Assembly (NCBI RefSeq): GCF_028993575.1
Contig: NZ_CP118615.1
Location: 3,658,001-3,722,000 of the forward strand
Length of the DNA stretch: 64,000 bases
From: Micromonospora cathayae
GTDB taxonomy: Bacteria; Actinomycetota; Actinomycetes; Mycobacteriales; Micromonosporaceae
Direction of reading: 5' to 3'
The translations under genes were made by a program, and so were the position numbers. The notes below the pieces were generated by a model, which saw only the letters and a program-made list of their open reading frames with translations, made no database searches and was not told where the DNA came from. Positions within the stretch are counted from its first letter, which is position 1. Each line of letters opens with the position of its first letter. This document shows, piece after piece, positions 39,289 through 64,000 of this stretch.

Positions 39289-41412
39289 TCAGCCGGGCGG
39301 GATGAGGATCTCGAACCAGACCGTGGAACCGCGCACCGTCGGATCCGTACCCCAGGCGTCGCTGAGCTGCTCGATCAGCCCCAGACCCCGCCCCCGGCTG
39401 CTCAGCGTGTCGGTCTGCGCCCGGGTCACGGTGCCCCGGGTGCCGGAGTCGGCGACCGACACCAGCAGCCGCTCCGGGCTGAGGTCGATCTCCACCCGGG
39501 CGGCGGTGCCGGCGTGCAGCAGGGCGTTGGTGGTCAGCTCGCTGGTGCACAGCACCGCCGCCCCGATGATCGACTCAGGCACCCGCCAGGTGGACAACTG
39601 CGCCGTCATCCAGTGCCGGACCCGGCTCGGCGCGGTCGGCTCCGCCGGCACCTCCATGCTCGCCGACCGGCTGGGCATCAGCGCGTGCTCGACCGCCAGC
39701 ACGGCCACGTCGTCCTCGGTGGCCCCGGGCACCGCCCCGGTGGCGACCGCGCAGAGCGCCCGGGGATCGCCGCTGGCCGCCCCGGCGACCGCCCCGGCCA
39801 GCCCGGCCAGCCCCACCGACAGGCTCTGCCGGCGGCGCTCCACCACACCGTCGCTGAACAGCAGCAGAGTGTCCCCCGGGGTGAACGGGACGGTGCTGGT
39901 GCCGGGCCGGCAACCCAGCCCCAGCGGCGCGCCACTGGGGACGTCCAGGTACACCGCCGAGGGCTCGTCGTCCGGAGAGGCGCACCGGCGCAGCAGCGGG
40001 GCCGGATGCCCGGCGCTGGCCAGGGTGAGCTGTTCCCGGTCCGCGTCGATCACCCCGAACACCACGGTCACGAAGAGTTCGTGGGTGCCGCCCTCGGCGC
40101 CCAGGCTGGCCACCAGCCGGTCCAGCGACGCCAGCACGGCGTCCGGACGCGGATCGGTCAGGGCCAGGGCGCGCAGTGCCGCCCGTACCTGCCCCATCCG
40201 GGCCGCGGCCTGCACGTCGTGGCCGGCCACGTCGCCCAGCACCACGCCCAGCCGGCCGTCGGGCAGCAGGAACGCGTCGTAGAAGTCCCCACCGGCGGCG
40301 TTGCCGTCCACTCCCGGGTCGTACCGGGCGGCGATCCGCAGCCGGGGCAGATCCGGCAGGTGCTCCGGCAGCATGCTGCGTTGCAGCAACTGGGCGGTAC
40401 CGTGCTGGGTCTCGAACCGGCGGGCCCGCTCGGCGGCCTGCCCGACCAGCTCCGCCGAGGCGGTCAGCAGCGCCCGCTCGGCGGCGGACCAGGGATGCGC
40501 CCGCTGGTAGCCGACGCTCAGCCCGCCACGCAGCACCGAGGTGCGCAGCGGCAGCGCCGCCAGGGCCCGGATCTTCTGGTCGTGCCGGTCCGCCGCCGCC
40601 TCGGCGAGGGGCTGGCCGTCCGCGGTGAAGCTGGGCACCCCGGTACGCGCGGTCACCACCAGCGGCCCGGGGGAGTCGTCCGGCGCGCGCCGCCAGAGCG
40701 GGGGGAGCCGCTCGTCGGCCTCGTCGAGCAGCTCGCCCCGGACGCGCCGGACGAGCCGCCAGCCGCCGCCGTCGTCCACCGCGAAGGCCACCCGGTCGGC
40801 GTCGAAGGAATCCAGCGTGTACCGCAGCGCGACCCGGGCCACGTCGTCCAGGGTGAGCGTGCCGGACAGGGCGGCGGCCAGCTCGCTCAGGCTCTGCAGC
40901 TGCTCGGTCACCTGGGTGGTCTCGGCCGCCACGGTCAGCACGCCCACCACCGTCCCGGCGCTGTCGCGTACCGGGGAACAGCCCCGGGTGAAGACGGCCT
41001 GCTCCACCACCCCGGAACCGTGCCGGACGATCGGCAGGATCGTCTCCCTGCCCAGCGCCGACCGGCCCTCGTGGAAGCTGCGTTCGACCAGGTCACCGAT
41101 GCCCGGCAGGTGCCACACGTCGGCGAAGACCTCGGCCGCCGGGCGGCCGATCGCCGGGTGCGCCGTCCCGACCAGCTCGGCGTAGCCGTCGTTGTAGAGC
41201 AGCCGGAACTCCGCACCGAGGGTCAGCGCCATCGGCACCGGTGAGGCGAGGACGAGGTCGACGACGGCGCGTACCGCCGGGTCCCACCGCTCGATCGGCC
41301 CGAGTGGGGTGCCGGCCCACGGGTGACCGAGGACGAGCGCCGCCGTGCCGGCGGCGGAGGCCCCCGGGATCGGGGCGGGTGAAGCGGGGACGTGCCCGAC
41401 CGTGCCTGGCAT
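39289..41412 (-). CDS. PAS-GAF-SpoIIE phosphatase with C-terminal anti-sigma-type kinase domain
   Basis: 707 aa from ATG 41412. Four modules are seen in order. A PAS domain (about 35-165, EFRLLYNDGYAELVG) and a GAF domain (about 180-335) come first. The PP2C/SpoIIE phosphatase (about 365-560) has metal motifs GGDFYDAF, GDVAGHDVQAA and LLFSDGVVE. An RsbW-like HATPase (about 595-705) follows with SELTTNALLHA and RGRGLGLI. Such proteins control partner-switching pathways by dephosphorylating an anti-anti-sigma factor and phosphorylating or binding it through the kinase part. No partner gene is adjacent. The ribosome binding site is weak. Confidence 0.88.
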   Translation of the reverse strand: MPGTVGHVPASPAPIPGASAAGTAALVLGHPWAGTPLGPIERWDPAVRAVVDLVLASPVPMALTLGAEFRLLYNDGYAELVGTAHPAIGRPAAEVFADVWHLPGIGDLVERSFHEGRSALGRETILPIVRHGSGVVEQAVFTRGCSPVRDSAGTVVGVLTVAAETTQVTEQLQSLSELAAALSGTLTLDDVARVALRYTLDSFDADRVAFAVDDGGGWRLVRRVRGELLDEADERLPPLWRRAPDDSPGPLVVTARTGVPSFTADGQPLAEAAADRHDQKIRALAALPLRTSVLRGGLSVGYQRAHPWSAAERALLTASAELVGQAAERARRFETQHGTAQLLQRSMLPEHLPDLPRLRIAARYDPGVDGNAAGGDFYDAFLLPDGRLGVVLGDVAGHDVQAAARMGQVRAALRALALTDPRPDAVLASLDRLVASLGAEGGTHELFVTVVFGVIDADREQLTLASAGHPAPLLRRCASPDDEPSAVYLDVPSGAPLGLGCRPGTSTVPFTPGDTLLLFSDGVVERRRQSLSVGLAGLAGAVAGAASGDPRALCAVATGAVPGATEDDVAVLAVEHALMPSRSASMEVPAEPTAPSRVRHWMTAQLSTWRVPESIIGAAVLCTSELTTNALLHAGTAARVEIDLSPERLLVSVADSGTRGTVTRAQTDTLSSRGRGLGLIEQLSDAWGTDPTVRGSTVWFEILIPPG

Positions 41413-41607
41413 GTGACGCAGCCTAGCCGGCACCGTCCCGGGCTGTTCGGCTCGCGCCCCGGCCGGCGACCGCGCCGACGGCCGACGGTCCGCGTCCGAC
41501 GTCCCGGCCAGGACCCCAATGTCCGGTAAAACAGCAGCTCAGCGGCGGGTTGGTGCTTCTCCGGCGGGGTATGCGGGCGGCGCAGACCAGGCGACAGGAG
41601 GGACGTC

Positions 41608-49881: not shown

Positions 49882-50028
49882 GCCCGCTCCCCGCGCCGCC
49901 GTTGACCGTGCCCGGTACCCCACCGGGGGTATCGACAAACGCGCGCGTGCTGTTTGCCGGTGCCGGCACGGGGAACGGTCGAACCGAAGCAGTCGACCAC
50001 GCGTAGTCGACCACGCGAGGAGGACGAG

Positions 50029-50430
50029 ATGCCAGGACGCGAGGTACTGCCCAGCACCGTGCGGCGCTCACCGGACAAGGCGCAGCGGACCTGGGCGAAG
50101 ACGCACGACTCGGCGGTCGAGACGTACGGCGAGGGGGAGCGGGCGCACCGGACCGCCTTCGCCGCGCTCAAGCACGAGTTCGAGAAGGTGGGCGACCACT
50201 GGGAGCCGAAGGGACGCAAGGGCCCGAGCGACACCCAGGCCGCCGGGGGCGGCCCGGCCCGGCGCGCGCCGACCGCCGGCGGGGTGGACGCCAACGCCAC
50301 CAAGGAGCACCTGATGGAGGTGGCGAAGAAGCTGGACGTCCGGGGCCGGTCCCGGATGACCAAGCCGGAACTGGTCAAGGCCATCCAGAAGGCCAACGAC
50401 CGGAGCACCCGCCGGGCCCGTGGGGACTGA
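50029..50430 (+). CDS. ChaB-domain protein with Rho-N-like C-terminus
   Basis: 133 aa from ATG 50029 with GAGGAGG upstream. Residues 1-60 form a ChaB domain (LPSTVRRSPDKAQRTWAKTHDSAVETYGEGERAHRTAFAALKH). A Gly/Pro-rich linker follows. The last 50 residues (ATKEHLMEVAKKLDVRGRSRMTKPELVKAIQKAN) form a SAP/Rho-N-like nucleic-acid-binding helix pair. ChaB in enterobacteria is linked to cation transport regulation, but this fusion form could be a DNA-binding stress protein. A 13-bp direct repeat (AGTCGACCACGCG, twice) lies just upstream at 49991-50017. Confidence 0.8.
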   Translation: MPGREVLPSTVRRSPDKAQRTWAKTHDSAVETYGEGERAHRTAFAALKHEFEKVGDHWEPKGRKGPSDTQAAGGGPARRAPTAGGVDANATKEHLMEVAKKLDVRGRSRMTKPELVKAIQKANDRSTRRARGD

Positions 50431-50486: not shown

Positions 50487-51920
50487 TCACCAGTGGCCGC
50501 CGCCCGGCGCGGCCAGGTGCACCACCTTCGTGGTGGTGAACTCGTCGAGCAGCTCCGGGCCGTACCCGAAACCCTGGCCGCTGCCCCGGCGCGGCTGCGC
50601 GGCACCCCCCGGCGCGCCCCCGAACACCGCGTTGACCTTGACCGTGCCGACCGGCAGCTCCCGCCAGGCCCGCTGGGCGTGGCTCATCGACCCGGTCAGC
50701 ACCGTGGCGGCCAGCCCGTACGGCGAACACGCCGCCCGGGTCAGCGCCTCGTCGAAGGAGTCCACCACCAGCACCGGGGCGACCGGCCCGAACGTCTCCT
50801 CACGGACCAGCGGCATCTCGTCGGTGCAGTCGGTGACCACGGTCGGCGGGTAGAACGCGCCCGACCCGTCCGGCAGGATGCCACCGGCACGCAGTCGGGC
50901 CCCCGCCGCCACCGCCGCCGTCACCTGGCCGTGCACGTGGTCCCGGTGCCGCCGGTCCACCAGCGGGCCGAGCTCGGTCTCCGGATCCTGCCCCGGACCG
51001 ACCCGCATCGCCCCGGCCAGGTCCACCAACGCCGCCACCATCTCGCCGGCCACCGCCCGGTGTACGTAGATCCGCTCCACCGCCACACAGATCTGCCCGG
51101 CGTTGGCGAACGCGCCCATCGCCGCCTGTCCCGCCGCCCAGGTCGGGTCCACGTCGGCGTCGACGATCAGCGGATCACTGCCGCCGTTCTCCAGCAGCGC
51201 CTTCGCGCCGGTCCGGGCACACGCGGCGGCGATCGCCCGCCCGGTGGCGGTGGACCCGACGTGCGCCACCACGTCGACCTCCTGCCCGGCGAGCGCCGCC
51301 CCGACCGCCGCGCCCCCGGTGAGCAGGGACAGCACCCCGGCCGGCAGCGCGCTGTCGAGCGCCTTCGCCAGCAGCCAACCCGTCGCCGGCGTCCGTTCGC
51401 TCGGCTTGAACACCACCACGTTGCCGGTGACCAGGGCCGCGCCGAGCAGCCCGCAGGCGACCGCCACCGGGTCGTTCCACGGGGTGAGCACCGCGACCAC
51501 GCCACGCGGCTCCGGGGCCATGAAGTCGACCGCGTCCCGGCCGCCGTGCAGGGTCCGGCCGCCACGCACCGGGGCCAGTTCGGCGTACTGGCGCAGGCTG
51601 CCGACCCCGGCGGCCACGCCGCCCCGGGCGTCCGGCAGCGGCTTGCCCATCTCGGCGGTCGTCGCCAGGGCCAGGTCCTCGGCGACCGCCGCCACCGCGT
51701 CCGCCGCCCGGTGCAGCGCCGCCGCCCGGTCCGCCGGAGCGGTCGCCGCCCAGCCGGCCGCCGCGCCCCGGGCCGCGCCGACCGCCTTGGCGACCTCGGC
51801 CTCAGTCGCCACCGGCACGGTGCTGACCGGGGTACCGTCCGCCGGGTCCGCCACGACGAACTCACCCCCCTCGCCGCCCGCGCCCCACACACCCCCGATG
51901 AGCTGCTCAACCCGGTACAT
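50487..51920 (-). CDS. Aldehyde dehydrogenase family protein
   Basis: 477 aa from ATG 51920. It is a complete NAD(P)-dependent ALDH: LTPWNDPVAVACGLLGAALVTGNVVVFKPSE for cofactor binding, GSTATG, the general base Glu in LLENGGSDP (usually ELGGK), and the nucleophile in NAGQICVAVERIYV. It oxidises an aldehyde to the acid. The substitution of Lys in the ELGGK loop is shared by several succinate-semialdehyde-like branches. No ribosome binding site is evident. It is divergent from the CrtI-like gene with a 72-bp gap. Confidence 0.87.
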   Translation of the reverse strand: MYRVEQLIGGVWGAGGEGGEFVVADPADGTPVSTVPVATEAEVAKAVGAARGAAAGWAATAPADRAAALHRAADAVAAVAEDLALATTAEMGKPLPDARGGVAAGVGSLRQYAELAPVRGGRTLHGGRDAVDFMAPEPRGVVAVLTPWNDPVAVACGLLGAALVTGNVVVFKPSERTPATGWLLAKALDSALPAGVLSLLTGGAAVGAALAGQEVDVVAHVGSTATGRAIAAACARTGAKALLENGGSDPLIVDADVDPTWAAGQAAMGAFANAGQICVAVERIYVHRAVAGEMVAALVDLAGAMRVGPGQDPETELGPLVDRRHRDHVHGQVTAAVAAGARLRAGGILPDGSGAFYPPTVVTDCTDEMPLVREETFGPVAPVLVVDSFDEALTRAACSPYGLAATVLTGSMSHAQRAWRELPVGTVKVNAVFGGAPGGAAQPRRGSGQGFGYGPELLDEFTTTKVVHLAAPGGGHW

Positions 51921-51992
51921 GGCGCGCTGGATGCCCGGGTCCGGCCGGGACAAACGCGTTTCGCCCGGTTGTCCGGGGGGTAGCGGGACCGG

Positions 51993-53805: not shown

Positions 53806-55155
53806 TCAGCCGTCGGTGCCCTTGGCCGACTCCACGACGGGAGCCGGTGCCGGTTCGGTCGCTGTTCCGGCCTTCGCCGTGGGCTCCGTCTTCGCCTTCG
53901 CCCTCGTCCTCGCCTTCGGGGCCGCCTTCGCCTTCGGCTTCGTCGGCCCGGCCGCCTCCGCCGTGGTCGGCTCGGCCGCCTCCGCCGTGGTCGGCTCGGC
54001 CGGGTCGGCCAGCTTGCCGCCGTTCACGTTCGCCGGCTCGGCCGGCCCGGCTGCGTTCGGCGCGACGGCGTCGGCGGCGACCGGCTCGGTCGGGCTGGGC
54101 TCGGTGCTGGCCGGCGTGGACTCGACGGTCGGGCCGGCCGTGGTGGGAGCCGGGTCCGCTTCGGTGACGACCGGGACCGTTCCGGCACCGGCCGGGGCTG
54201 CTGCGGCGGGTGCGGCGACGGCCGGGGTGGCGTCGGCTGCGGCGGGGGCGGACCCGGTGGCGACCGGAGCCGGAACGGCCGCCGTGGCGGGCTCGGTGGC
54301 CGTGGTGGGCTCGGTGGCCGTGGTGGGCTCGGTGACAGCCGGGGTGGGCTCGGTGGTGGCCGGCGGCAGCGCGGTCGGGCGGGGGCTGTCGGTGCCGATG
54401 TCACGGTGCCGGGTCCGGAGCTTGAACGGCATCAGCGCACTTTCGATCTTCGTGGCCGTGCTCATCTTCGACACACCATCCCGCCGCTCCTCGAAGCGGA
54501 TCGGCACCTCCAGGATCGTGTGCCTCAACTTGGTGGCGAGGTAGTGCATCTCCACCTGGAAGCTGTACCCATTGGACTGCACCCGCTCCAGCCCGATCGC
54601 GCGCAGCGTCTCGGCCCGCCAGATCTTGAACCCGGCGGTCAGGTCGCGGATCCGGACCCGCAGCAGGGTGTGCACGTAGAGGTTCGCCCAGCCGCTGAGC
54701 GCCCGCCGGTACAGCGGCCACGCCTCGTCCAGCTCGCCACCGGGCACGTACCGGGAACCGATCACCACGCCGGAGTCGGTGGAGAGCAGCGCGCCGAGCA
54801 TGCCGGGCAGCGCCTCCGGCGGGTGCGACAGGTCCGCGTCCATCTGGGCGACGTACTCGGCACCGTCGGCCAGCGCCCGGGTGATGCCGTCCACGTACGC
54901 CCGGCCCAGCCCCTCCTTGCCCGGACGGTGCACCACCCGGACCCGGTCCGGGTGCTCGATGGCGAGCTTGTCGGCGACCTCGCCGGTGCCGTCGGGGGAG
55001 TTGTCGTCGGCGACCAGAACCCGCAACCCGGGCAGGGGCAGGGCGAGGAGCCGCTGCACCAGCACCGGGAGGTTCCCCGCCTCGTTGTAGGTGGGCACCA
55101 CGACCGTCAGGCGCGCGTCCCGCCACGGCGAGGGTAACTGTACGGGTTCGATCAT
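53806..55155 (-). CDS. Polyprenol-phosphate mannosyltransferase with long low-complexity tail
   Basis: 449 aa from ATG 55155, with GAGG 9 bp upstream. ATG 55164 is an alternative. Residues 1-245 form a GT2 Dpm1-type glycosyltransferase: VVVPTYNEAGNLPVLV, VADDNSPDGTGEVA, QMDADLSHPPE, and GSRYVPGG. It transfers mannose from GDP-mannose to a polyprenyl phosphate for cell-wall glycans or protein mannosylation. Family members of this type end near residue 250. Here a further 200 residues are almost only Pro, Ala, Thr and Glu (repeats of TTATEP and TTAEAAEP), ending in a Lys-rich block (KPKAKAAPKARTRAKAK). The usual fused Lnt/acyltransferase domain is absent. Confidence 0.88.
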   Translation of the reverse strand: MIEPVQLPSPWRDARLTVVVPTYNEAGNLPVLVQRLLALPLPGLRVLVADDNSPDGTGEVADKLAIEHPDRVRVVHRPGKEGLGRAYVDGITRALADGAEYVAQMDADLSHPPEALPGMLGALLSTDSGVVIGSRYVPGGELDEAWPLYRRALSGWANLYVHTLLRVRIRDLTAGFKIWRAETLRAIGLERVQSNGYSFQVEMHYLATKLRHTILEVPIRFEERRDGVSKMSTATKIESALMPFKLRTRHRDIGTDSPRPTALPPATTEPTPAVTEPTTATEPTTATEPATAAVPAPVATGSAPAAADATPAVAAPAAAAPAGAGTVPVVTEADPAPTTAGPTVESTPASTEPSPTEPVAADAVAPNAAGPAEPANVNGGKLADPAEPTTAEAAEPTTAEAAGPTKPKAKAAPKARTRAKAKTEPTAKAGTATEPAPAPVVESAKGTDG

Positions 55156-55309
55156 GACGAGCATCCTCAGTTTGCCGGCAAGTGTCCCTGAAAGGGTAGC
55201 CATCCGACCGTGTCGTGCTCTCAGGGCTCCCCGGTGAGCCTTCGGTCGCACTTCCACCGTCCGGCCCGACCGACCGGTACCCAAGGTCGACCGGGGGTGG
55301 CACTGCTGG

Positions 55310-56311
55310 TCAGCGGTGGCGACGGCCCAGACCGCCGAGGGCGAGCGCCACCGCGCCCAGCGCGACGGCGGTGACCGCCGGCTTGTGCGTACCGACCCAG
55401 AGGGCCGCCGAGCGGTGCCGGGCCCGGTCGGTGAAGACCCCCTCGGCACCCCGGTCGTGTTCCTGGTCGCCCGGCCGGTCCAGGTTGTCCCGCCAGGTGT
55501 GCGGGTCGACCGGGGTGTCGGTCTGCTGGCTGTCGTACCCGTCGCGGGCGAGTTTCCGGTCCAGCAGGCCCGGGAAGAGGATGTTGCCGAGCCGGGCCTG
55601 CCAGGTCGGGCCGCCCACGTTCAGCTCCCGTGGCCCCCGGTCGGCGGCCCACCCGATGGCCCGCGCCGCCACCTCGGGGCTGAAGATCGGCGGTACCGGC
55701 TGCGGGTGCCGGGGCAGCCGGGTCCGCACCCAGGAGAACTGCGGGGTGTTGATCGCCGGGAGCTGCACCATCGTCAGCTTCACCCCGGGACAGTCGTGCA
55801 GCAGCTCGGCCCGGAGCGAGTCGTTGAAGCCCTGGATCGCGTGCTTGCTCGCGCAGTACGCCGACTGCAACGGGATGCCCCGGTACGCCAGCGCCGAGCC
55901 GACCTGCACGATCGTGCCCCGGCCCCGGGCCCGCATGTGGTGCAGCGCGGCGAGGGTGCCGTGCACCGTACCCAGATAGTTCACCTCGGTGACCCGGCGG
56001 AACTCGGCGGCCGGGATCTCCCAGGCCGGCGCGAAGACCGAGACCATCGCGTTGTTGATCCACACGTCCAGCCCACCCCAGTGGTGGACCACGTCGTCGG
56101 CGGCCCGCTGCACCGCCCCGGCGTCGGCCACGTCGAGCTGGTAGGTGCGTACCTCGGCCGCGCCCAGTTCCCGGCAGTCCCGTTCGGCGGCGGCCAGCCC
56201 GGCCGCGCCCCGCGCGATCAGCGCCAACCGGGCGCCCCGGCCGGCGTAGTGGCGGGCCAGCGCCCGACCGACCCCGGCGCTCGCCCCGGTGATCACCACG
56301 GTCGACGTCAT
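55310..56311 (-). CDS. SDR family oxidoreductase with C-terminal membrane helix
   Basis: 333 aa from ATG 56311, which overlaps the previous stop as ATGA. It is a classical SDR: ITGASAGVGRAL, INNAM (NNAG variant) and YCASK. The C-terminal 80 residues beyond the SDR core (DGYDSQQTDTPVDPHTWRDNLDRP) end in a hydrophobic helix (TAVALGAVALALGGLG), so it is probably tethered to the membrane. The membrane-tailed type is frequent in mycobacteria and relatives as an uncharacterised oxidoreductase. It is coupled to the upstream SRPBCC gene. Confidence 0.85.
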   Translation of the reverse strand: MTSTVVITGASAGVGRALARHYAGRGARLALIARGAAGLAAAERDCRELGAAEVRTYQLDVADAGAVQRAADDVVHHWGGLDVWINNAMVSVFAPAWEIPAAEFRRVTEVNYLGTVHGTLAALHHMRARGRGTIVQVGSALAYRGIPLQSAYCASKHAIQGFNDSLRAELLHDCPGVKLTMVQLPAINTPQFSWVRTRLPRHPQPVPPIFSPEVAARAIGWAADRGPRELNVGGPTWQARLGNILFPGLLDRKLARDGYDSQQTDTPVDPHTWRDNLDRPGDQEHDRGAEGVFTDRARHRSAALWVGTHKPAVTAVALGAVALALGGLGRRHR

Positions 56312-56754: not shown

Positions 56755-56925
56755 TACGCTCCCATACCCCAGCGCGGGTGCCGGCTAACGGTGGTTAGCT
56801 TCTCCGGGCCGACGGGTAAGGTCCGACGACGCGCGGCGGCGGCACCGCCGTGGCGGCGACGTTTACTCCCGCAGGGGTCGGGAACCCGCCCGCCGTGCGA
56901 GCGGATCACCAGTCGGATCAGCGCA

Positions 56926-56972: not shown

Positions 56973-58655
56973 GTGCCCCGGCTGGCTGTCCCCCGGCTGT
57001 TCGACGCGGTGCTGTTCGACCGGGACGGCACGCTGGTCGAGGACGTCCCGTACAACGGCGACCCGGACAAGGTACGGCCGGTGGCCGGCGCCCGGGAGGC
57101 GCTGGACCGGTTGCGTGCGGCCGGGCTGCGGCTCGGGGTGGTCACCAACCAGTCGGGCCTGGCGCGTGGCCTGTTCACCGCCGACGACATGCGCCGGGTG
57201 CACGCCCGGATCGAGGAGCTGCTCGGCCCGTTCGACACCTGGCAGGTGTGCCCGCACGACGACGGGCACGGCTGCGACTGCCGCAAACCCGACCCCGGGC
57301 TGGTCCGGCGGGCCGCCCGGGACCTCGGCACCACCCCGTCCCGCTGCGTGGTGGTGGGGGACATCGGCCGGGACGTGACCGCCGCGCTCGCCGCCGGGGC
57401 GACCGGGGTCCTGGTGCCGACCCCGGTGACCCGTACCGAGGAGGTCGCCGCCGCGCCGACCGTCGCCCGGGACCTGCCGGCGGCGGTCGCCGAGATCCTG
57501 CGCCGGCAGTCGTCGATCGTGCCGACCGCCCCCCGGCGGGCCGGGACGGTCCTGGTGGTACGGGCCGACTCGGCCGGGGACGTGCTGGTCACCGGGCCGG
57601 CGATCCGGGCGGTGGCGGCCGGCGCACGCCGGGTGGTGCTGCTCTGCGGGCCCCGGGGCCGGGCCGCCGCCGCGCTGCTGCCCGGGGTGGACGAGATCGT
57701 CGAGTGGCCGCTGCCGTGGATCGACCCGGATCCCGCCCCGGTCGACCGGGCCGGCACCGACCGGCTGCTGGCCCGACTGGCCGCCGTCGGGGCGGACGAG
57801 GCGGTGGTGTTCACCTCGTTCCACCAGTCGGCGCTGCCGCTGGCGCTGCTGCTGCGGATGGCCGGGGTCCGGCGGATCAGCGCGATCAGCGACGACTACC
57901 CGGGGGCCCTGCTGGACGTGCGGCACCGGGTGCCGGTCGGGGTGCCGGAGGCGGAGCGGGCCCTGTCCCTCGCCGCCGCCGCCGGTTTCGCCCTGCCCAG
58001 CGGGGACGAGCCGGCCCTGCGGCTGCGCCGGGACGCGCTGCTGCCGTCGCAGTCCGGCCGGTCCGGTGGTCCGGCGGTCCTGCCCGCGCCCGGCTACCTG
58101 GTGGTGCACCCGGGCTCCTCGGCGTCGGCGCGGGCCTGCCCGCCGGAGCTGGCCGCCCGGATCGTCGCCGCGCTCGCCGCCGCCGGTCACCGGGTGGTGG
58201 TCACCGGCGGCCCGGGTGAGCGTGAGCTGACCGCCCGGGTGGCCGCCGCCGGCGGCGTCGACCTGGGCGGCCGGACCGACCTGGCCGGGCTGGCCGCCGT
58301 CCTCGCCGGTGCCGCGGCGATGGTGGTCGGCAACACCGGCCCCGCCCACCTGGCCGCCGCGCTGGGCGTACCGGTGGTGAGCCTGTTCGCCCCGACGGTG
58401 CCGTTCGGGCAGTGGGGGCCGTACCGGGTGCCGACCGTGCGGCTCGGTGACGCGGGCGCGGCCTGCCGGGACACCCGGGCGGCCCGCTGTCCGGTACCCG
58501 GTCACCCCTGCCTGGCCGGCGTCGACCCCGCCGAGGTCGTCGAGGCGGTACGCCGGCTCGGTGCCCCGGGCCCGTCGGACCGGCCGGACGGACCCGGGGT
58601 GCCGGACCGGCCCGCGGTGCCGGCCCGGCTGCACGTCACCGGGGGTGGCCGGTGA
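56973..58655 (+). CDS. Fusion of GmhB-like HAD phosphatase and GT9 heptosyltransferase-like domain
   Basis: 560 aa from GTG 56973. The HAD motif DAVLFDRDGTL is then at residue 10, as in GmhB. GTG 56850 or 56895 would add an untypical extension. Residues 1-175 are a HAD-IIIA phosphatase with the zinc loop CPHDDGHGCDCRKPDP and GDIGRD, the D-glycero-D-manno-heptose 1,7-bisphosphate phosphatase type. Residues from about 190 are a GT9 domain (VLVVRADSAGDVLVTGPAIRAV, then VHPGSSASARACPPELAARIVAAL and GNTGPAHLAAALGVPVVSLFAP), as in ADP-heptose:LPS heptosyltransferases. The two activities are separate proteins in Gram-negative bacteria. It heads an overlapping operon with GmhA- and HldE-like genes. 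Confidence 0.85.
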   Translation: MPRLAVPRLFDAVLFDRDGTLVEDVPYNGDPDKVRPVAGAREALDRLRAAGLRLGVVTNQSGLARGLFTADDMRRVHARIEELLGPFDTWQVCPHDDGHGCDCRKPDPGLVRRAARDLGTTPSRCVVVGDIGRDVTAALAAGATGVLVPTPVTRTEEVAAAPTVARDLPAAVAEILRRQSSIVPTAPRRAGTVLVVRADSAGDVLVTGPAIRAVAAGARRVVLLCGPRGRAAAALLPGVDEIVEWPLPWIDPDPAPVDRAGTDRLLARLAAVGADEAVVFTSFHQSALPLALLLRMAGVRRISAISDDYPGALLDVRHRVPVGVPEAERALSLAAAAGFALPSGDEPALRLRRDALLPSQSGRSGGPAVLPAPGYLVVHPGSSASARACPPELAARIVAALAAAGHRVVVTGGPGERELTARVAAAGGVDLGGRTDLAGLAAVLAGAAAMVVGNTGPAHLAAALGVPVVSLFAPTVPFGQWGPYRVPTVRLGDAGAACRDTRAARCPVPGHPCLAGVDPAEVVEAVRRLGAPGPSDRPDGPGVPDRPAVPARLHVTGGGR

Positions 58656-59626
58656 ACGTCCTGCTCTGGCATGTGCACGGCTCCTGGACCACCTCGTTCG
58701 TGCACGGCAAGCACCGCTACCTGGTGCCGGTCACCCCGGACCGGGGCGCGTACGGGCTGGGCCGGGCGCGCACCTACCGGTGGCCGGACAACGCCGTCGA
58801 GGTCACCCCGGACGAGCTGCGCACCGCCGACGTGGACGTGGTGATCCTCCAGCGTCCCGAGGAGTACGAGCTGGCCGGCGACTGGCTGGGTCGCCGGGTC
58901 GGCCGGGACGTGCCGGCGATCTACGTCGAGCACAACACCCCCAAGGGCGACGTGCCGAACACCCGGCACCCGATGGCCGACCGCGACGACCTGCTGGTCG
59001 CCCACGTCACCCACTTCAACGAGCTGTTCTGGGACACCGGCGGCACCCGGACCACCGTCGTCGAGCACGGCATCGTGCCGCCCGCCGCGACGTACACCGG
59101 GGAACTGGACCGGTTGGCCGTGGTGATCAACGAGCCGGTGCGCCGCTGGCGGGTCACCGGCACCGACCTGCTGCCCCGGTTCGCCGAGATCGCCCCGCTG
59201 GACGTGTTCGGCATGGGCGTGGCCGGGCTCGCCGACCGGCTGGGCCTGCCGCCGGACCGGCTGACCAGCCACGACGACGTACCGCAGGAACGGATGCACG
59301 CCGAACTGGGCCGACGGCGGGCGTACCTGCACCTGTGCCGGTGGACCTCGCTCGGGCTGAGCCTGATCGAGGCGATGAGCATCGGCATGCCGGTGGTGGT
59401 GCTGGCCACCACGGAGGCGGTGGCGGCCGTACCGCCGGACGCGGGGGTGCTCGCCACCCGGCTGGACGACCTGCTGGCGGGGGCCGGGCGGTTCGTCGCC
59501 GAGCCGGACACCGCCCGGCGGGTGGGTGACGCCGCCCGCGTGGCGGCCGGGGCCCGGTACGGCCTGGACCGATTCCTCGGCGACTGGGACCGGCTGCTGG
59601 AGGAGGAAGCATGCGCGTCGCGATGA
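58652..59626 (+). CDS. GT-B glycosyltransferase
   Basis: 324 aa. GTG 58652 overlaps the preceding stop (GTGA). The GT-B fold is suggested by the N-terminal NVLLWHVHGSWTTSFVHGKHRYLVPV, a central EHNTPKGD, and the C-terminal donor-site motif SLGLSLIEAMSIGMPVVVLATTEAVAAVP. No specific CAZy family can be fixed by eye, GT4 being the nearest. It probably adds a sugar to the same glycan as the operon's GT9 enzymes. Confidence 0.82.
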   Translation: MNVLLWHVHGSWTTSFVHGKHRYLVPVTPDRGAYGLGRARTYRWPDNAVEVTPDELRTADVDVVILQRPEEYELAGDWLGRRVGRDVPAIYVEHNTPKGDVPNTRHPMADRDDLLVAHVTHFNELFWDTGGTRTTVVEHGIVPPAATYTGELDRLAVVINEPVRRWRVTGTDLLPRFAEIAPLDVFGMGVAGLADRLGLPPDRLTSHDDVPQERMHAELGRRRAYLHLCRWTSLGLSLIEAMSIGMPVVVLATTEAVAAVPPDAGVLATRLDDLLAGAGRFVAEPDTARRVGDAARVAAGARYGLDRFLGDWDRLLEEEACASR

Positions 59627-60816
59627 TCTCGGAGCACGCCAGCCCGCTCGCCGTCCTCGGCGGTGAGGACGCCGGCGGGCAGAACACGCACGTCGCGGAG
59701 CTGGCCGCCGCGCTCGCCGCCGCCGGCCACGAGGTACGCGTCTACACCCGCCGCGACTCGGTCGCGCTGCCGGTCACCGTCCGCGCCGACGACGGGTACC
59801 ACGTGGTGCACGTGCCCGCCGGGCCGGCCGAACCGGTCGGCAAGGACACCCTGCTGCCGTACATGCCGGCGTTCGGCGAGTGGCTGGCGCGGCAGTGGCG
59901 CGCGGAGTGGACCCCCGAGGTGGCGCACGCGCACTTCTGGATGAGCGGGCTGGCCGCGCTGGCCGCCGGCCGGCGGACCGGGGTGCCGGTGGTGTTGACG
60001 TACCACGCGCTGGGGGTGGTCAAGAAACGCCACCAGGGGGACCAGGACACCAGCCCGCCGGGGCGGATCGACTACGAACGCGCCCTCGGCGTGGCCGTCG
60101 ACCGGGTGATCGTGCAGAGCCGCGACGAGGTGCGGGAACTGGTCGCCACCGGGGTGCCCCGGTCCCGGATGACGGTGATCCCGTCCGGGGTGAACCTGCG
60201 GACCTTCACCCCGGTCGGGCCGGTCGCCGCCCGGGACCCCGACCGGCCCCGGGTGCTGACGGTGGGCCGGCTGGTCGAACGCAAGGGCTTCCACGAGGTG
60301 ATCCGGGCGCTGCCGGCGGTACCGGACGCCGAGTGCGTGGTGGTGGGCGGCCCGCCGGCCGGCCTGGTCGACGACGACCCGCAGGCCCGCCGGCTGCGGG
60401 CGCTCGCCGCCTCCTGCGGGGTGGCCGACCGGGTACGCCTGGTCGGCGCGGTGCCCCGCGAGGAGATGGGCGCCTGGTACCGCTCGGCGGACGTGCTGGT
60501 CGCCGCGCCCTGGTACGAGCCGTTCGGACTGACCCCGCTGGAGGGGATGGCCTGCGGGGTGCCGGTGGTGGGCAGCGCGGTCGGCGGCATCGTGGACACG
60601 GTGGTGGACGGGCTGACCGGTGATCTCGTCCCGCCCCGCGACCCGGCCGCGCTCGGCGCGACGCTGCGGCGGCTGCTGGCCGACCGGGACCGCCGTTTCG
60701 CGTACGCCATGGCCGCCCTGGAGCGGGCCCGGAACCGCTACTCCTGGGAACGTACCGCCGCGCAGCTCGTCGACGTGTACGCGGCGGTGCGCCGGCCGAC
60801 CCGGGTGGTCGCCTGA
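59611..60816 (+). CDS. GT4 family glycosyltransferase
   Basis: 401 aa from ATG 59611, with GGAGGAGG upstream. The start lies 16 bp inside the previous gene. It is a GT4 retaining enzyme: N-terminal ISEHASPLAVLGGEDAGGQNTHVAELA (nucleotide-sugar transferase loop, MshA/sucrose-synthase-like), VIPSGVN, TVGRLVERKG and the E-x7-E motif in PWYEPFGLTPLEGMACGVPVV. It uses an NDP-sugar to extend a glycan. The operon position suggests it acts next to heptose addition. Confidence 0.87.
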   Translation: MRVAMISEHASPLAVLGGEDAGGQNTHVAELAAALAAAGHEVRVYTRRDSVALPVTVRADDGYHVVHVPAGPAEPVGKDTLLPYMPAFGEWLARQWRAEWTPEVAHAHFWMSGLAALAAGRRTGVPVVLTYHALGVVKKRHQGDQDTSPPGRIDYERALGVAVDRVIVQSRDEVRELVATGVPRSRMTVIPSGVNLRTFTPVGPVAARDPDRPRVLTVGRLVERKGFHEVIRALPAVPDAECVVVGGPPAGLVDDDPQARRLRALAASCGVADRVRLVGAVPREEMGAWYRSADVLVAAPWYEPFGLTPLEGMACGVPVVGSAVGGIVDTVVDGLTGDLVPPRDPAALGATLRRLLADRDRRFAYAMAALERARNRYSWERTAAQLVDVYAAVRRPTRVVA

Positions 60817-61631
60817 TGGCGGCCCCGACGGTGCTGGAGGCGCACCTGGCCGACCTGGCCGTGGCCCTGCGGGAGTACCGCCGCACGGCGACCCGGCTGG
60901 CCCGGTGGGGTGACGAACTGGCCGCCACCCTCACCGGCGGCGGGCGGCTGCTGGTGGCCGGCAACGGGGGCAGCGCCGCCGAGGCCCAGCACCTCACCGC
61001 CGAGCTGGTCGGCAAGCTGCGCCACGACCGGCAGCCGCTGTCGGCGATCGCGCTGCACGCGGAGACCAGCGCGGTCACCGCGATCGGCAACGACTACGGC
61101 TACCACGAGGTCTTCGCCCGGCAGGTCCGGGCGCACGGCCGACCGGGCGACATCCTGCTGCTGCTGTCCACCAGCGGGGCGAGCGGCAACCTGCTCGAAG
61201 CGGCCCGCGCCGGCCGGGAGAGCGGGCTGCGCTGCTGGGCGATGACCGGCCCGGCCCCCAACCCGCTCGCCGACGCCTGCCACGACGTACTGGCCGTCGC
61301 CGCCCCGGACAGCCAGATCGTCCAGGAACTGCACCTGGTCTCGGTGCACGTGCTCTGCGAGCACGTCGACCGCGCGGTGCCGCTGCCGGCGGCCGACGGT
61401 CACCGGCACCGGCCGGTCACCGCCGCCCGCGCCACCCCGGCCACCGGCGTGCAGGTGCCGCTCGACGGTACGCCCGCCGACGTGGAGCTGCCGCTCGGTG
61501 GCACGGCCGCCGACGTGGATCTGCCGGTCGACGGTACGGCCGCCGACGTGGATCTGCCGGTCGACGGTACGGCCGCCGACGTGGCGGTGCCGGTCGACGG
61601 CGCGGTCGAGCCGACCCGGGGGGTGGCATGA
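60816..61631 (+). CDS. GmhA-like SIS-domain sedoheptulose-7-phosphate isomerase
   Basis: 271 aa from ATG 60816, overlapping the preceding stop (TGATG). Residues 1-190 are a SIS domain of the GmhA type: GNGGSAAEAQHLTAELVGKL, AIGNDYGYHEVF, LLSTSGASGNLLEAA and HLVSVHVLCEHVD. It should convert sedoheptulose 7-phosphate to D-glycero-D-manno-heptose 7-phosphate, the first step of NDP-heptose synthesis. The last 60 residues are 11-residue tandem repeats (LPVDGTAADVD and variants, about 4.5 copies, encoded by 33-bp repeats from about 61448). GmhA normally lacks this. The start of the next gene overlaps by ATGA. Confidence 0.87.
   Translation: MAAPTVLEAHLADLAVALREYRRTATRLARWGDELAATLTGGGRLLVAGNGGSAAEAQHLTAELVGKLRHDRQPLSAIALHAETSAVTAIGNDYGYHEVFARQVRAHGRPGDILLLLSTSGASGNLLEAARAGRESGLRCWAMTGPAPNPLADACHDVLAVAAPDSQIVQELHLVSVHVLCEHVDRAVPLPAADGHRHRPVTAARATPATGVQVPLDGTPADVELPLGGTAADVDLPVDGTAADVDLPVDGTAADVAVPVDGAVEPTRGVA
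61448..61610 (+). repeat. 33-bp coding tandem repeats in the GmhA-like gene
   Basis: Successive units encode VPLDGTPADVE, LPLGGTAADVD, LPVDGTAADVD, LPVDGTAADVA and VPVDGAVE. The third and fourth are nearly identical at DNA level, pointing to recent expansion. Confidence 0.85.
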
Positions 61632-63085
61632 CCGGGCCGGTGGTGGTGGTCGGGGACATCCTGCTGGACCGGGACGTCGAAGGCGTGGTGAACCGGCTCT
61701 GCCCGGACTCCCCGGTGCCCGTGCTGGACGAGACCGCGCACGTGGAGCGGCCCGGTGGGGCGGGACTCGCCGCGCTGTTCGCCGCCGGGCAGGGCGTCGA
61801 GGTGGCCCTGGTGACCGCGCTGGCCGACGACCCGGCCGGGGCCCGGCTCAGCTCCCTGCTGACCGCCGCCGGGGTGCAGGTGTACGCGCTGCCCCTGGCC
61901 GGTGCCACGCCGGAGAAGATCCGGCTGCACGCCCGGGGCCGGGTGCTGCTGCGGCACGACCGGGGCGGGGCGGCGGGACCACCGGGGGAGCCGAGCGAGG
62001 CGGTGCTGCGGCTGATCGCCCGCGCGTCGGCCGTACTGGTCAGCGACTACGGCCGGGGGGTGGCCCGGCAGCCCGCGCTGCGGGCCGCGTTGGCCGCGAC
62101 CGCCGCGCCGGTGGTCTGGGACCCGCACCCGCGCGGCCCGGACGCGGTGCCCGGGGTCCACCTGGCCACCCCGAACGAGGCGGAGGTCCGCGAGCTGGCC
62201 GACGCCCCGCCGGGGCCGTCCCGGCTGGCCAGCGCCACCCGGGGCGCGCAGGGGCTGCGCCAGCGGTGGCGGGCCCGCGCGGTGGCGGTCACCCTCGGGG
62301 CCGACGGCGCGCTGCTCTGCCACGCCGGATCGACCCCGCTGGTGGTGCCCGCCCCGGGCAACGCGGAGGGGGACACCTGCGGTGCCGGGGACCGGTTCGC
62401 GGCGACCGCCAGCATCGCCCTGGCCCGGGGCGCGCTGATCTCCGAGGCGGTGCAGGCCGCGGTGGCCGAGGCGTCGGCGTACGTGGCGGCCGGCGGGGTG
62501 GCGCAGGTGCTGCCGGGGCCGGTGACCACGCCGGTACCGGCGGCGTTCAGTGCCGGCGGGGAACGGATCGGCGCGGCGGCGGTCGGCGCGGTGGTCGGCG
62601 CGGTCCGGGCGGCCGGCGGCACGGTGGTCGCCACCGGCGGCTGCTTCGACCTGCTGCACGCCGGGCACGTCGCCACCCTCCAGGCCGCCCGCCAGCTCGG
62701 CGACTGCCTGGTGGTCTGCGTCAACTCCGACGCCAGCGTCACCGGTCTGAAGGGTCCGCAGCGGCCGGTGGTGCCGCAGGGCGACCGCAGCCGGATGCTG
62801 GCCGCGTTGAGCTGCGTCGACGCGGTACTGCTCTTCGACGAGGCGACCCCGCACGCGGTGCTGTCCTGGCTGCGTCCGGACATCTGGGTCAAGGGCGGCG
62901 ACTACGTCACCGGCGCGGGCGACCACCCGGTGCTGCCGGAGGCCGAGATCCTGCGGCGCTGGGGCGGGCACACCGTGGTCGTGCCGTACCTGGCCGGCCG
63001 CTCCACCACCGACCTGATCGCCGCCGCCCGCGCCGCCGACCACCGGAGTACCGACGACCGCCCGACCCCGGAGGGAGCACGATGA
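61628..63085 (+). CDS. HldE-like bifunctional heptose kinase / nucleotidyltransferase
   Basis: 485 aa. ATG 61628 overlaps the preceding stop (ATGA). Residues 1-310 are a PfkB/ribokinase-type kinase (VVVGDILLDRDVEG, then RPGGAG, and the catalytic GDTCGAGD with D255). Residues 325-470 are a cytidylyltransferase-fold domain with GGCFDLLHAGH (HAGH at 344-347) and NSDASVTGLKG...RPV. The order equals HldE, which phosphorylates D-glycero-D-manno-heptose 7-phosphate and later makes ADP-heptose from heptose 1-phosphate. Together with the GmhA- and GmhB-like genes the pathway to ADP-D,D-heptose is complete. The epimerase HldD is not seen. Confidence 0.88.
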   Translation: MTGPVVVVGDILLDRDVEGVVNRLCPDSPVPVLDETAHVERPGGAGLAALFAAGQGVEVALVTALADDPAGARLSSLLTAAGVQVYALPLAGATPEKIRLHARGRVLLRHDRGGAAGPPGEPSEAVLRLIARASAVLVSDYGRGVARQPALRAALAATAAPVVWDPHPRGPDAVPGVHLATPNEAEVRELADAPPGPSRLASATRGAQGLRQRWRARAVAVTLGADGALLCHAGSTPLVVPAPGNAEGDTCGAGDRFAATASIALARGALISEAVQAAVAEASAYVAAGGVAQVLPGPVTTPVPAAFSAGGERIGAAAVGAVVGAVRAAGGTVVATGGCFDLLHAGHVATLQAARQLGDCLVVCVNSDASVTGLKGPQRPVVPQGDRSRMLAALSCVDAVLLFDEATPHAVLSWLRPDIWVKGGDYVTGAGDHPVLPEAEILRRWGGHTVVVPYLAGRSTTDLIAAARAADHRSTDDRPTPEGAR

Positions 63086-63783
63086 GCAGCGGAGCCCTGG
63101 CGGACGGGTCGACCGTCCTGGTCACCGGTGGCGCGAGCGGCCTGGGGGCCGCGGTGGTCACCGCCGTCGCGCGGGCCGGCGCCCGACCGGTGGTGCTCGA
63201 CCGGCAGCCGCCCGGCGACGGGGTGCCCTGGATCGAGTGCGACCTCGCCGACACCCGGGCCGCCGAGGCCGCCACCCGGGAACTGGCCGAACGCTCCGGC
63301 GGGCTGGACGCGGTGGTCACCGCAGCCGGCGTCGACGTGCCCGGCCGGCTCGCCGACGTACCCGGCGAGACCTGGGACCGGATCGTCACCGTCGACCTGC
63401 TCGCCACCGCCGCGGTCGTCCGGGCCGCCCTGCCGTACCTGGTCGCCGCCCGGGGCAGCGTGGTGACCGTCGCCTCCACCCTCGGGGTCAAGGCGGTCGG
63501 TGACGCCACCGCGTACTGCGCGGCGAAGTTCGGGGTGGTCGGCTTCACCCGTGCCCTGGCGGCGGAACTCGCCGGTGAGGTCGGGGTGACCCTGCTGATC
63601 CCGGGCGGCATGCGGACCGCCTTCTTCGACGACCGGGACGAGCGGTACCGGCCGGGACCGGACGCCGTGCTCAACGAGCCGGCCGACGTGGCCGCCGCCG
63701 TGCTGTTCGCGCTCGGCCAGCCGACCGGTTGCGCCGTCCGGGAACTGGTGGTCTGCGCCGAGCAGGAGACCTCGTACCCGTGA
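63082..63783 (+). CDS. Short-chain dehydrogenase in the heptose operon
   Basis: 233 aa from ATG 63082, overlapping the preceding stop (ATGA) with GGAGGGAG upstream. It is a classical SDR: VTGGASGLGAAVV, TAAG in place of NNAG, and YCAAK. It is not the extended SDR type of HldD, the ADP-heptose 6-epimerase, so epimerisation at C6 is not its obvious role. It could oxidise or reduce a sugar or an aglycone. Its place in the operon is certain but its substrate is not. Confidence 0.83.
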   Translation: MSSGALADGSTVLVTGGASGLGAAVVTAVARAGARPVVLDRQPPGDGVPWIECDLADTRAAEAATRELAERSGGLDAVVTAAGVDVPGRLADVPGETWDRIVTVDLLATAAVVRAALPYLVAARGSVVTVASTLGVKAVGDATAYCAAKFGVVGFTRALAAELAGEVGVTLLIPGGMRTAFFDDRDERYRPGPDAVLNEPADVAAAVLFALGQPTGCAVRELVVCAEQETSYP

Positions 63784-64000
63784 TCCTGGTGCTGCGCGCC
63801 CTCGGCGTCGGTGACCTCGCCACCGCCGTGCCGGCGCTGCGCGCGCTGCGCGCCGGCTACCCGGACCGGGAACTGGTGCTGGCCGCTCCGCGCTGGTTGA
63901 CCCCGCTGGTGGACCTGGTCGGCGGGGTGGACCGGGTGCTGCCCACCGACGGTCTGGTCCCGCTCGACCTGGCCGGTCGGCCCCCGGAACTGGCGGTCAA
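63780..64000 (+). CDS. GT9 family heptosyltransferase-like protein, N-terminal part (cut by window edge)
   Basis: 73 codons from GTG 63780, overlapping the SDR stop (GTGA). The N-terminus VILVLRALGVGDLATAVPALRALRAGYPDRELVLAAPRWL is characteristic of GT9 (ADP-heptose:LPS heptosyltransferase family). The C-terminal donor domain lies beyond the window. With the fused GT9 domain at 56973 it makes two GT9 units in the operon, suggesting that at least two heptose residues, or heptoses on two acceptors, are added. Confidence 0.8.
   Translation, partial: MILVLRALGVGDLATAVPALRALRAGYPDRELVLAAPRWLTPLVDLVGGVDRVLPTDGLVPLDLAGRPPELAV

Follow-up and report, generated by a model that had tools for sequence, protein, structure and literature searches.

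The 64,000-nucleotide stretch of DNA analyzed here (the window) comprises bases 3658001–3722000 of the one-contig, 7.2 Mb genome of Micromonospora cathayae. From position 56973 to the window end at 64000, it carries an operon predicted to supply and transfer a nucleotide-activated heptose. All genes of this operon lie on the plus strand and overlap their neighbors by 1–16 bases, in the order GmhB-GT9 fusion, glycosyltransferase (GT) of a group 1-like type, GT4, GmhA, HldE, short-chain dehydrogenase (SDR) and second GT9. The features are listed below, with the identities of the encoded proteins to those of the cwg operon of Streptomyces coelicolor, as represented by locus L112.

56973..57542, plus strand: GmhB-like HAD phosphatase domain, N-terminal part of the fusion, cwgD homologue (62%; assigned by family and alignment)
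57543..58655, plus strand: GT9 domain a (GT9a), C-terminal part of the fusion, cwgE homologue (57%)
58652..59626, plus strand: glycosyltransferase, GT group 1-like, cwgF homologue (62%)
59611..60816, plus strand: GT4 glycosyltransferase, MshA-like below the cut-off, cwgG homologue (52%)
60816..61631, plus strand: predicted GmhA sedoheptulose 7-phosphate isomerase, cwgH homologue (64%)
61628..63085, plus strand: predicted HldE kinase/nucleotidyltransferase, cwgI type (54%)
63082..63783, plus strand: SDR, without a match in the cwg operon of L112
63780..64000, plus strand: GT9 b (GT9b), cwgJ homologue (50%), running past the window to window-equivalent 64778 (L005:10778)

The fusion gene spans 56973–58655, with the domain boundary near 57543. 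Its start at 56973 is favored over 56850 because of the conserved promoter at 56861–56885; the coding region could reach up to about 56895. GT9b begins with a GTG at 63780 that overlaps the SDR stop, and 221 of its bases lie inside the window. A 33-base tandem repeat (4.9 copies, 61438–61600) encodes GTAADVDLPVD-like repeats at the C-terminus of GmhA, and this tail varies in nine related loci where it is readable. A preliminary description of the DNA had named GmhA-, HldE- and GmhB-like proteins, two GT9 domains and two other glycosyltransferases in an overlapping operon. All of these were confirmed with Pfam and NCBIfam profiles and by alignment; the SDR between HldE and the second GT9 is added here.

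Family calls were made with the cut-offs of the respective profiles. GT9a matches PF01075 with 77.7 bits (cut-off 22). GmhA scores 152.6 bits against TIGR00441 (cut-off 209.45), the GmhB domain scores 122.7 bits against PRK08942 (cut-off 178), and HldE scores 259.7 bits against PRK11316 (cut-off 521) and 167.3 bits against rfaE_dom_II (cut-off 181.5). The active-site motifs of solved heptose enzymes align in each of these proteins. The GNGGS, GNDYG, STSG and QE..H motifs known from phosphoheptose isomerases of solved structure are retained in GmhA, also in a pairwise alignment with the E. coli enzyme. In the GmhB domain, FDRDGT, the CPH...CDCRKP site and the GD motif are retained, and the domain matches the model for the phosphatase acting on the β-anomer better than that for the α-anomer (122.7 versus 37.3 bits). 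HldE keeps GAGD in the kinase domain and HxGH and KGGDY in the transferase domain. Isomerase, kinase, 7-phosphatase and nucleotidyltransferase are all present with their active-site residues, apart from two departures in HldE that are described below.

The genome encodes a single GmhA match of such quality, that of the operon, together with two HldE and three GT9 matches. No HldD 6-epimerase scores above the cut-off in the genome (best match 107.1 bits, cut-off 274.6), and for this reason an HldD-dependent L,D-heptose was rejected. The complete route from sedoheptulose 7-phosphate to a nucleoside diphosphate (NDP)-D,D-heptose that had been proposed earlier, followed by transfer through GT9 enzymes, is supported as a prediction by this inventory. 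The same enzyme families form the adenosine diphosphate (ADP)-heptose pathway of the Gram-negative lipopolysaccharide inner core (GmhA, HldE, GmhB, WaaC/F), and most catalytic residues are kept in the window. The two differ in that no HldD above the cut-off is encoded here and in that HldE belongs to a different subfamily. The organism group of Micromonospora is not known to make lipopolysaccharide.

Relation to the cwg operon and distribution

The cwg operon of S. coelicolor corresponds to SCO6179–6190, with a promoter 147 bases before the first gene, according to the section of PMC6767563 that describes it. An exact match to this promoter was found in one of 392 Streptomyces genomes (locus L112), where the operon start lies 147 bases past the promoter, in agreement with the published distance. 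The L112 genome was taken as S. coelicolor or a close relative. No match to the cwg promoter within 8 mismatches was obtained among eight named Streptomyces loci. The L112 operon encodes an extended SDR, a carbamoyltransferase (its family assigned via the related L042 protein), GT2, GmhB, GT9, GT, GT4, GmhA, HldE, GT9 and two further GT2. The window proteins correspond to the fourth to tenth of these genes (cwgD-E-F-G-H-I-J), in the same order and with the identities given above. Gene identity and order, conservation, active-site residues and the homology to cwg are observed directly. As judged from these comparisons, the window operon is the Micromonospora form of an actinobacterial cwg-type predicted heptose operon. 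It is not a new kind of operon; it appears to be a variant with a build and a promoter peculiar to its branch.

The variant differs from cwg in several respects. GmhB and GT9 are separate in L112 and fused in the window, and the window has an SDR between HldE and GT9b. The window operon is without cwgA, cwgB and cwgC before it and without cwgK and cwgL after it. For the NodU-type carbamoyltransferase (cwgB), a search of the window genome gave no match, and the same search was positive in 3/3 control genomes; cwgA, cwgC, cwgK and cwgL are not in or next to the operon, and the rest of the genome was not searched for them.

Conservation was assessed in 80 named loci. Among named genomes the window HldE has 535 relatives, and these loci are the best 80 of them; the set is biased to close kin, and a few loci come from the same genome. 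Group A comprises 44 window-like loci (Micromonospora, Salinispora) and group B comprises 13 second operons in Micromonospora. Seven loci of Actinoplanes and its kin form group C, and 16 loci form group D (Streptomyces, Pseudonocardiales, Nocardioides, Thermoleophilia). GmhA is followed by HldE in 80/80 loci. The order GmhB-GT9-GT-GT4-GmhA-HldE is found in 68/80, with some of the other 12 ending at contig ends, and all eight domains, including the SDR and the second GT9, occur in order in 58/80. Given these counts, the arrangement is not due to chance. At its expected position the SDR is absent from the six Streptomyces loci that hold that position, and it was not found in L112 either. A carbamoyltransferase gene was seen within the retrieved flanks at 7 B, 7 C and 15 D loci and at no A locus.

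GmhB and GT9a share one frame in 43/43 A, 8/9 B and 7/7 C loci (58/59 for A–C together), in 1/17 D loci (L112 counted) and in 0/7 further loci. GmhA and the cwg-type HldE form one continuous frame in 6/88 loci, in two lineages, in agreement with the published tridomain synthetases of actinobacteria; in the window they are separate genes. Within the genus, HldE was found in 36/37 genomes, with at least two matches in 35, and the comparison among relatives that had been suggested earlier gave a conserved operon. Across the class, HldE matches at E ≤ 1e-30 occur in 53/196 genomes and 32/81 genera; 4/14 control genomes also match at this threshold.

In the gene tree, the window-type HldE forms its own clade (support 0.99). 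In the trees of GT_B, GT4 and SDR, the smallest clade with all of group A also contains group B, which points to a mixed history; the GmhA tree had too few rows. Some Micromonospora carry the second operon of group B (L042–L064), which includes a carbamoyltransferase. Its HldE is about 66% identical to that of the window, and its GT_B, GT4 and SDR are about 77–82% identical.

The product had been called little-described; as regards the operon this is overstated, in view of the homology to cwg and the published survey of actinobacterial NDP-heptose synthetases. A study of 2002 reportedly called the cwg product a putative cell wall glycan, and Tang et al. (2022) are said to have surveyed the actinobacterial NDP-heptose synthetases, including the tridomain synthetases. 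Neither a paper naming the cwg product nor a description of this operon in Micromonospora was found in the searched open-licence literature.

A predicted SigB-type promoter before the operon

Two promoter-like elements precede the operon.

56861..56885, plus strand: SigB-type promoter GTTTAC-N13-GGGAAC (1 match in the window, 0 in 100 shuffles)
56794..56819, plus strand: upstream SigB-type promoter-like block GTTAGC-N14-GGGTAA

The first is present in 41/41 group A loci in which the region is covered, with a spacer of 13 in 40 of them and of 14 in one; three further group A loci end at contig ends before it. The upstream block is exact in 33 of the same 41 loci. The operon promoter occurs in 0/13 B, 0/7 C and 0/16 D loci; in 6 of the B loci the sequence ends before the start of the operon is reached. 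The excerpted SigB consensus of PMC8346170 is GTTTAA-N12-14-GGGA/TAA/T, and the operon promoter fits it except for the last base, C, which the same excerpt also gives for S. coelicolor SCO5749p and SCO3557p.

The looser pattern GTTT-N14-16-GGGWAC has 24 sites in the genome, compared with 1 for the backward control. Five of these sites lie within 22 kb at the operon, and 0/100 simulations of 94 kb reached five (mean 0.17). Another lies at the second HldE locus, in the gap between HldE2 and a DJ-1/PfpI gene that is divergent from it. Downstream of the sites are, among others, genes for catalase, DJ-1/PfpI, ChaB, WhiB, hemerythrin, a STAS/HATPase regulator, DUF2188 and DUF2267, which are typical general-stress genes. 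These assignments come from ten downstream proteins picked by eye for the scan, to which ChaB, BrkB, RecQ and the operon add four; they cover 14 of the 24 sites, and some of the other ten have no convincing gene behind them. Two SigB/F/G sigma factors score above the cut-off in the genome. A SpoIIE phosphatase with GAF and HATPase domains is encoded at 39292–41433, 15 kb from the operon, and could be a SigB-type regulator; proteins of this kind control SigB-type factors.

The conservation of the promoter-like sequence and the regulon-like distribution of the sites in the genome are observed, and use of the promoter is predicted from them. Most likely, the operon belongs to a SigB-type general stress regulon. 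The pattern GGAAC-N15-20-CGTCT for sigma-E was not found near the operon start in group A loci, but the published cwg promoter would fail this pattern too, as the pattern is more stringent. The excerpt of PMC6767563 describes cwg as vancomycin-induced and partly sigE-dependent, and the window operon has a SigB-type site; both operons appear to be stress-linked envelope operons, that of the window by its promoter type. Elsewhere, cwgA is listed as raised by salt (PMC13011467, in part), and a heptosyltransferase of unknown context is raised by salt in Frankia in the relevant part of PMC5563000.

The second HldE locus and flanking genes

A second locus lies at 1.82 Mb, 1.9 Mb from the operon; it encodes a second HldE, followed by a GT2, and a GT9 in convergent orientation. 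This GT2 is 31% identical to cwgK over 102 residues. In the survey of the class, at least two HldE matches were found in 18 genomes; the two lie within about 11 kb of each other in 6 of them, and in the others they are on different contigs or far apart. In these six genomes, from three families (L113–L118), the second-type HldE adjoins the cwg-type operon; a GT9 lies nearby in 6/6 and the GT2 in 5/6. We infer that the second locus may serve the same glycan as the operon and that the two have become separated in Micromonospora. In L097 (14575–17249), the second HldE is a long protein whose kinase domain carries a low-complexity insert; its gene is divergent from a DJ-1/PfpI gene with a SigB-type promoter-like site. 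In L117 (11277–13827) and L118 (9289–11921), an apparent extra GT4 and an extra GT9 lie between the two heptose loci, as judged by eye from the translation.

The two types of HldE differ at conserved positions. In the cwg type, Leu replaces the Asn of GGAANVA (E. coli position 55) and Gly that of TNGVFD (346), each in 88/88 sequences, and the window HldE reads GGAGL and TGGCFD; the second type keeps Asn at both positions in 20/20. An arginine linked to the formation of cytidine diphosphate (CDP)- and uridine diphosphate (UDP)-heptose in the relevant parts of PMC11461863 and PMC11573728 is present in 82/88 cwg-type and 17/20 second-type HldE, compared with Cys in E. coli. The CDP/UDP motif, as excerpted from PMC11461863, is matched in part only, since its first residue, F or L, is mostly Tyr in the cwg type; the second type is further from it, with mostly YxxDRSTS. 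The nucleotide sugar had been named ADP-heptose in the preliminary description. An NDP-heptose is upheld as a prediction, and ADP is not settled because the cwg-type HldE departs at two positions in 88/88 sequences and mostly carries the arginine linked to CDP and UDP.

GT9a likewise has Asn at the position of WaaC Asp261 in 87/89 sequences, whereas GT9b keeps Asp in 83/86. Arg at the position of WaaC Lys192 occurs in 89/89 GT9a sequences and is not special to them, since it is also found in 45/86 GT9b and 13/13 second-locus GT9.

The flanks of the operon were surveyed with 38 proteins (window-equivalent 24.8 to 94 kb), judged by family names and not including every called gene. Two neighbors recur at related loci.

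50029..50430, plus strand: ChaB-like protein with its own SigB-type promoter-like site (49952–49976); its cluster occurs in 16 A and 4 D loci
50490..51950, minus strand: aldehyde dehydrogenase of uncertain role in the pathway; its cluster occurs in 24 A, 5 C and 3 D loci

Both recur beside heptose operons in other orders. The ChaB gene and a divergent BrkB/YihY gene occupy 49915–50430, with a SigB-type site at each. The segment 51993–56754 encodes a CrtO-like oxidoreductase, a GT2 with a long low-complexity tail, an SDR and an SRPBCC-type protein; these genes sit where group C loci have a carbamoyltransferase and a GT2. Since the aldehyde dehydrogenase and topoisomerase IB flanks are common to some group C loci, a replacement in this segment is possible. 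The one further glycosyltransferase among the flank proteins is a GT2 (53806–55449, minus strand). Transport functions are represented by two MFS transporters, a sodium/proton exchanger and mechanosensitive channels, all encoded outside the operon.

Proposed glycan and alternative products

From these assignments, GmhA would convert sedoheptulose 7-phosphate to D-glycero-D-manno-heptose 7-phosphate, and the kinase domain of HldE would form the 1,7-bisphosphate. The GmhB domain would remove the 7-phosphate, and the nucleotidyltransferase domain of HldE would form NDP-D-glycero-D-manno-heptose, with ADP and perhaps also CDP or UDP as the nucleotide. The two GT9 domains and the two other transferases, together with the third GT9, the GT2 and the second HldE encoded elsewhere, would then build up a glycan that contains heptose; assembly would take place on a carrier, on the cytoplasmic side of the membrane. 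Transcription from the SigB-type promoter in Micromonospora would mean that the glycan is made in the general stress response. The enzyme activities, the sugar, the glycan, its carrier and its place in the envelope are predictions from homology. As a whole, we consider it probable, although by no means assured, that a cwg-type operon makes an NDP-heptose for an envelope glycan under a SigB-type promoter.

Several observations weigh against this proposal. GmhA, GmhB and HldE all score below the NCBIfam equivalog cut-offs, and the departures of the cwg-type HldE and GT9a from the canonical enzymes at conserved positions leave substrate and nucleotide uncertain. The GT9 that adjoins the second HldE in L115–L118 resembles GT9a more than it resembles the second-locus GT9 of the window genome, and no GT2 match was obtained in L113. 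The conserved block at the promoter extends about 20 bases past the supposed –10 element, beyond the need of a SigB-type promoter. Extension to the right of the window, which had been suggested earlier as a way to find remaining transferases and an export system, completed GT9b to 64778 and then reached a DNA topoisomerase IB gene (window-equivalent 64762–65745); none of the 38 flank proteins belongs to a flippase, polymerase or ligase family. Finally, no major wall polymer known so far corresponds to the cwg product, because the streptomycete wall polymers listed in the excerpt of PMC11481543, teichulosonic acid and poly(diglycosyl 1-phosphate), contain no heptose.

The last two points would also fit the strongest alternative, in which a membrane glycolipid or exported proteins, and not a wall polymer, would receive the heptose, with the MshA/PimA-like GT4 priming on an inositol- or lipid-type acceptor. 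Against the mycothiol MshA model the GT4 scores 241 bits, short of the cut-off of 462.5, and among solved chains it matches those named D-inositol 3-phosphate glycosyltransferase and PimA. However, its best match in the PDB is another protein, Tll1590 (222 bits), and acceptors are not readable from the sequence. We regard this alternative as fairly unlikely.

It is less likely that the cwg-type enzymes have switched to another sugar phosphate and that no heptose is made. The replacements of Asn55 and Asn346 throughout the cwg type and in 0/20 second-type HldE, and that of Asp261 in GT9a, would be in keeping with such a switch. On the other hand, GmhA, GmhB and GT9b keep their residues, and the cwg-type HldE is tied to the product of GmhA because both lie in one continuous frame in some loci.

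A secreted small molecule of the septacidin or hygromycin type is very improbable: heptose precursors are used for septacidins, according to the relevant parts of PMC10948575 and PMC11461863, but the operon is widespread in the genus and class with conserved order, no scaffold genes were recognized in the scanned flanks, and the promoter is of a stress type. A specialized-metabolite cluster was rejected on the grounds of conservation and flanks. The septacidin and hygromycin B pathways resemble that of the window operon in drawing heptose from sedoheptulose 7-phosphate (PMC10948575, in the part concerned); they differ in that the operon is conserved across genera and that no nucleoside or aminocyclitol genes were recognized in the scanned flanks. 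The earlier remark that such genes are missing was borne out among the 38 flank proteins. The preference expressed there for a surface glycan or glycolipid over an antibiotic stands as far as the antibiotic is concerned, given the occurrence of HldE in the genus and the flanks without recognized scaffold genes; a glycolipid or some other kind of glycan may be the product.

It is tempting to ask why there should be two HldE enzymes. Many actinobacteria may run two parallel HldE on one supply from GmhA and GmhB, one canonical and one of the divergent cwg type, whose altered sugar and nucleotide pockets would be paired with a divergent GT9. Two activated heptoses (another isomer, or CDP/UDP-heptose beside ADP-heptose) would then be provided for one stress-induced envelope glycan, under SigB in Micromonospora and sigma-E in Streptomyces. 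We offer this as a speculation that is doubtful at present.

For the envelope glycan favored here, the comparison yields a minimal gene set, a chemical prediction (heptose) and a second locus that seemingly belongs to the same glycan. It also yields two regulatory wirings, of the sigma-E and the SigB type, which both point to stress. The old question of the cwg product is thereby made directly testable in a laboratory strain, and the answer would bear on heptose metabolites outside the Gram-negative bacteria.

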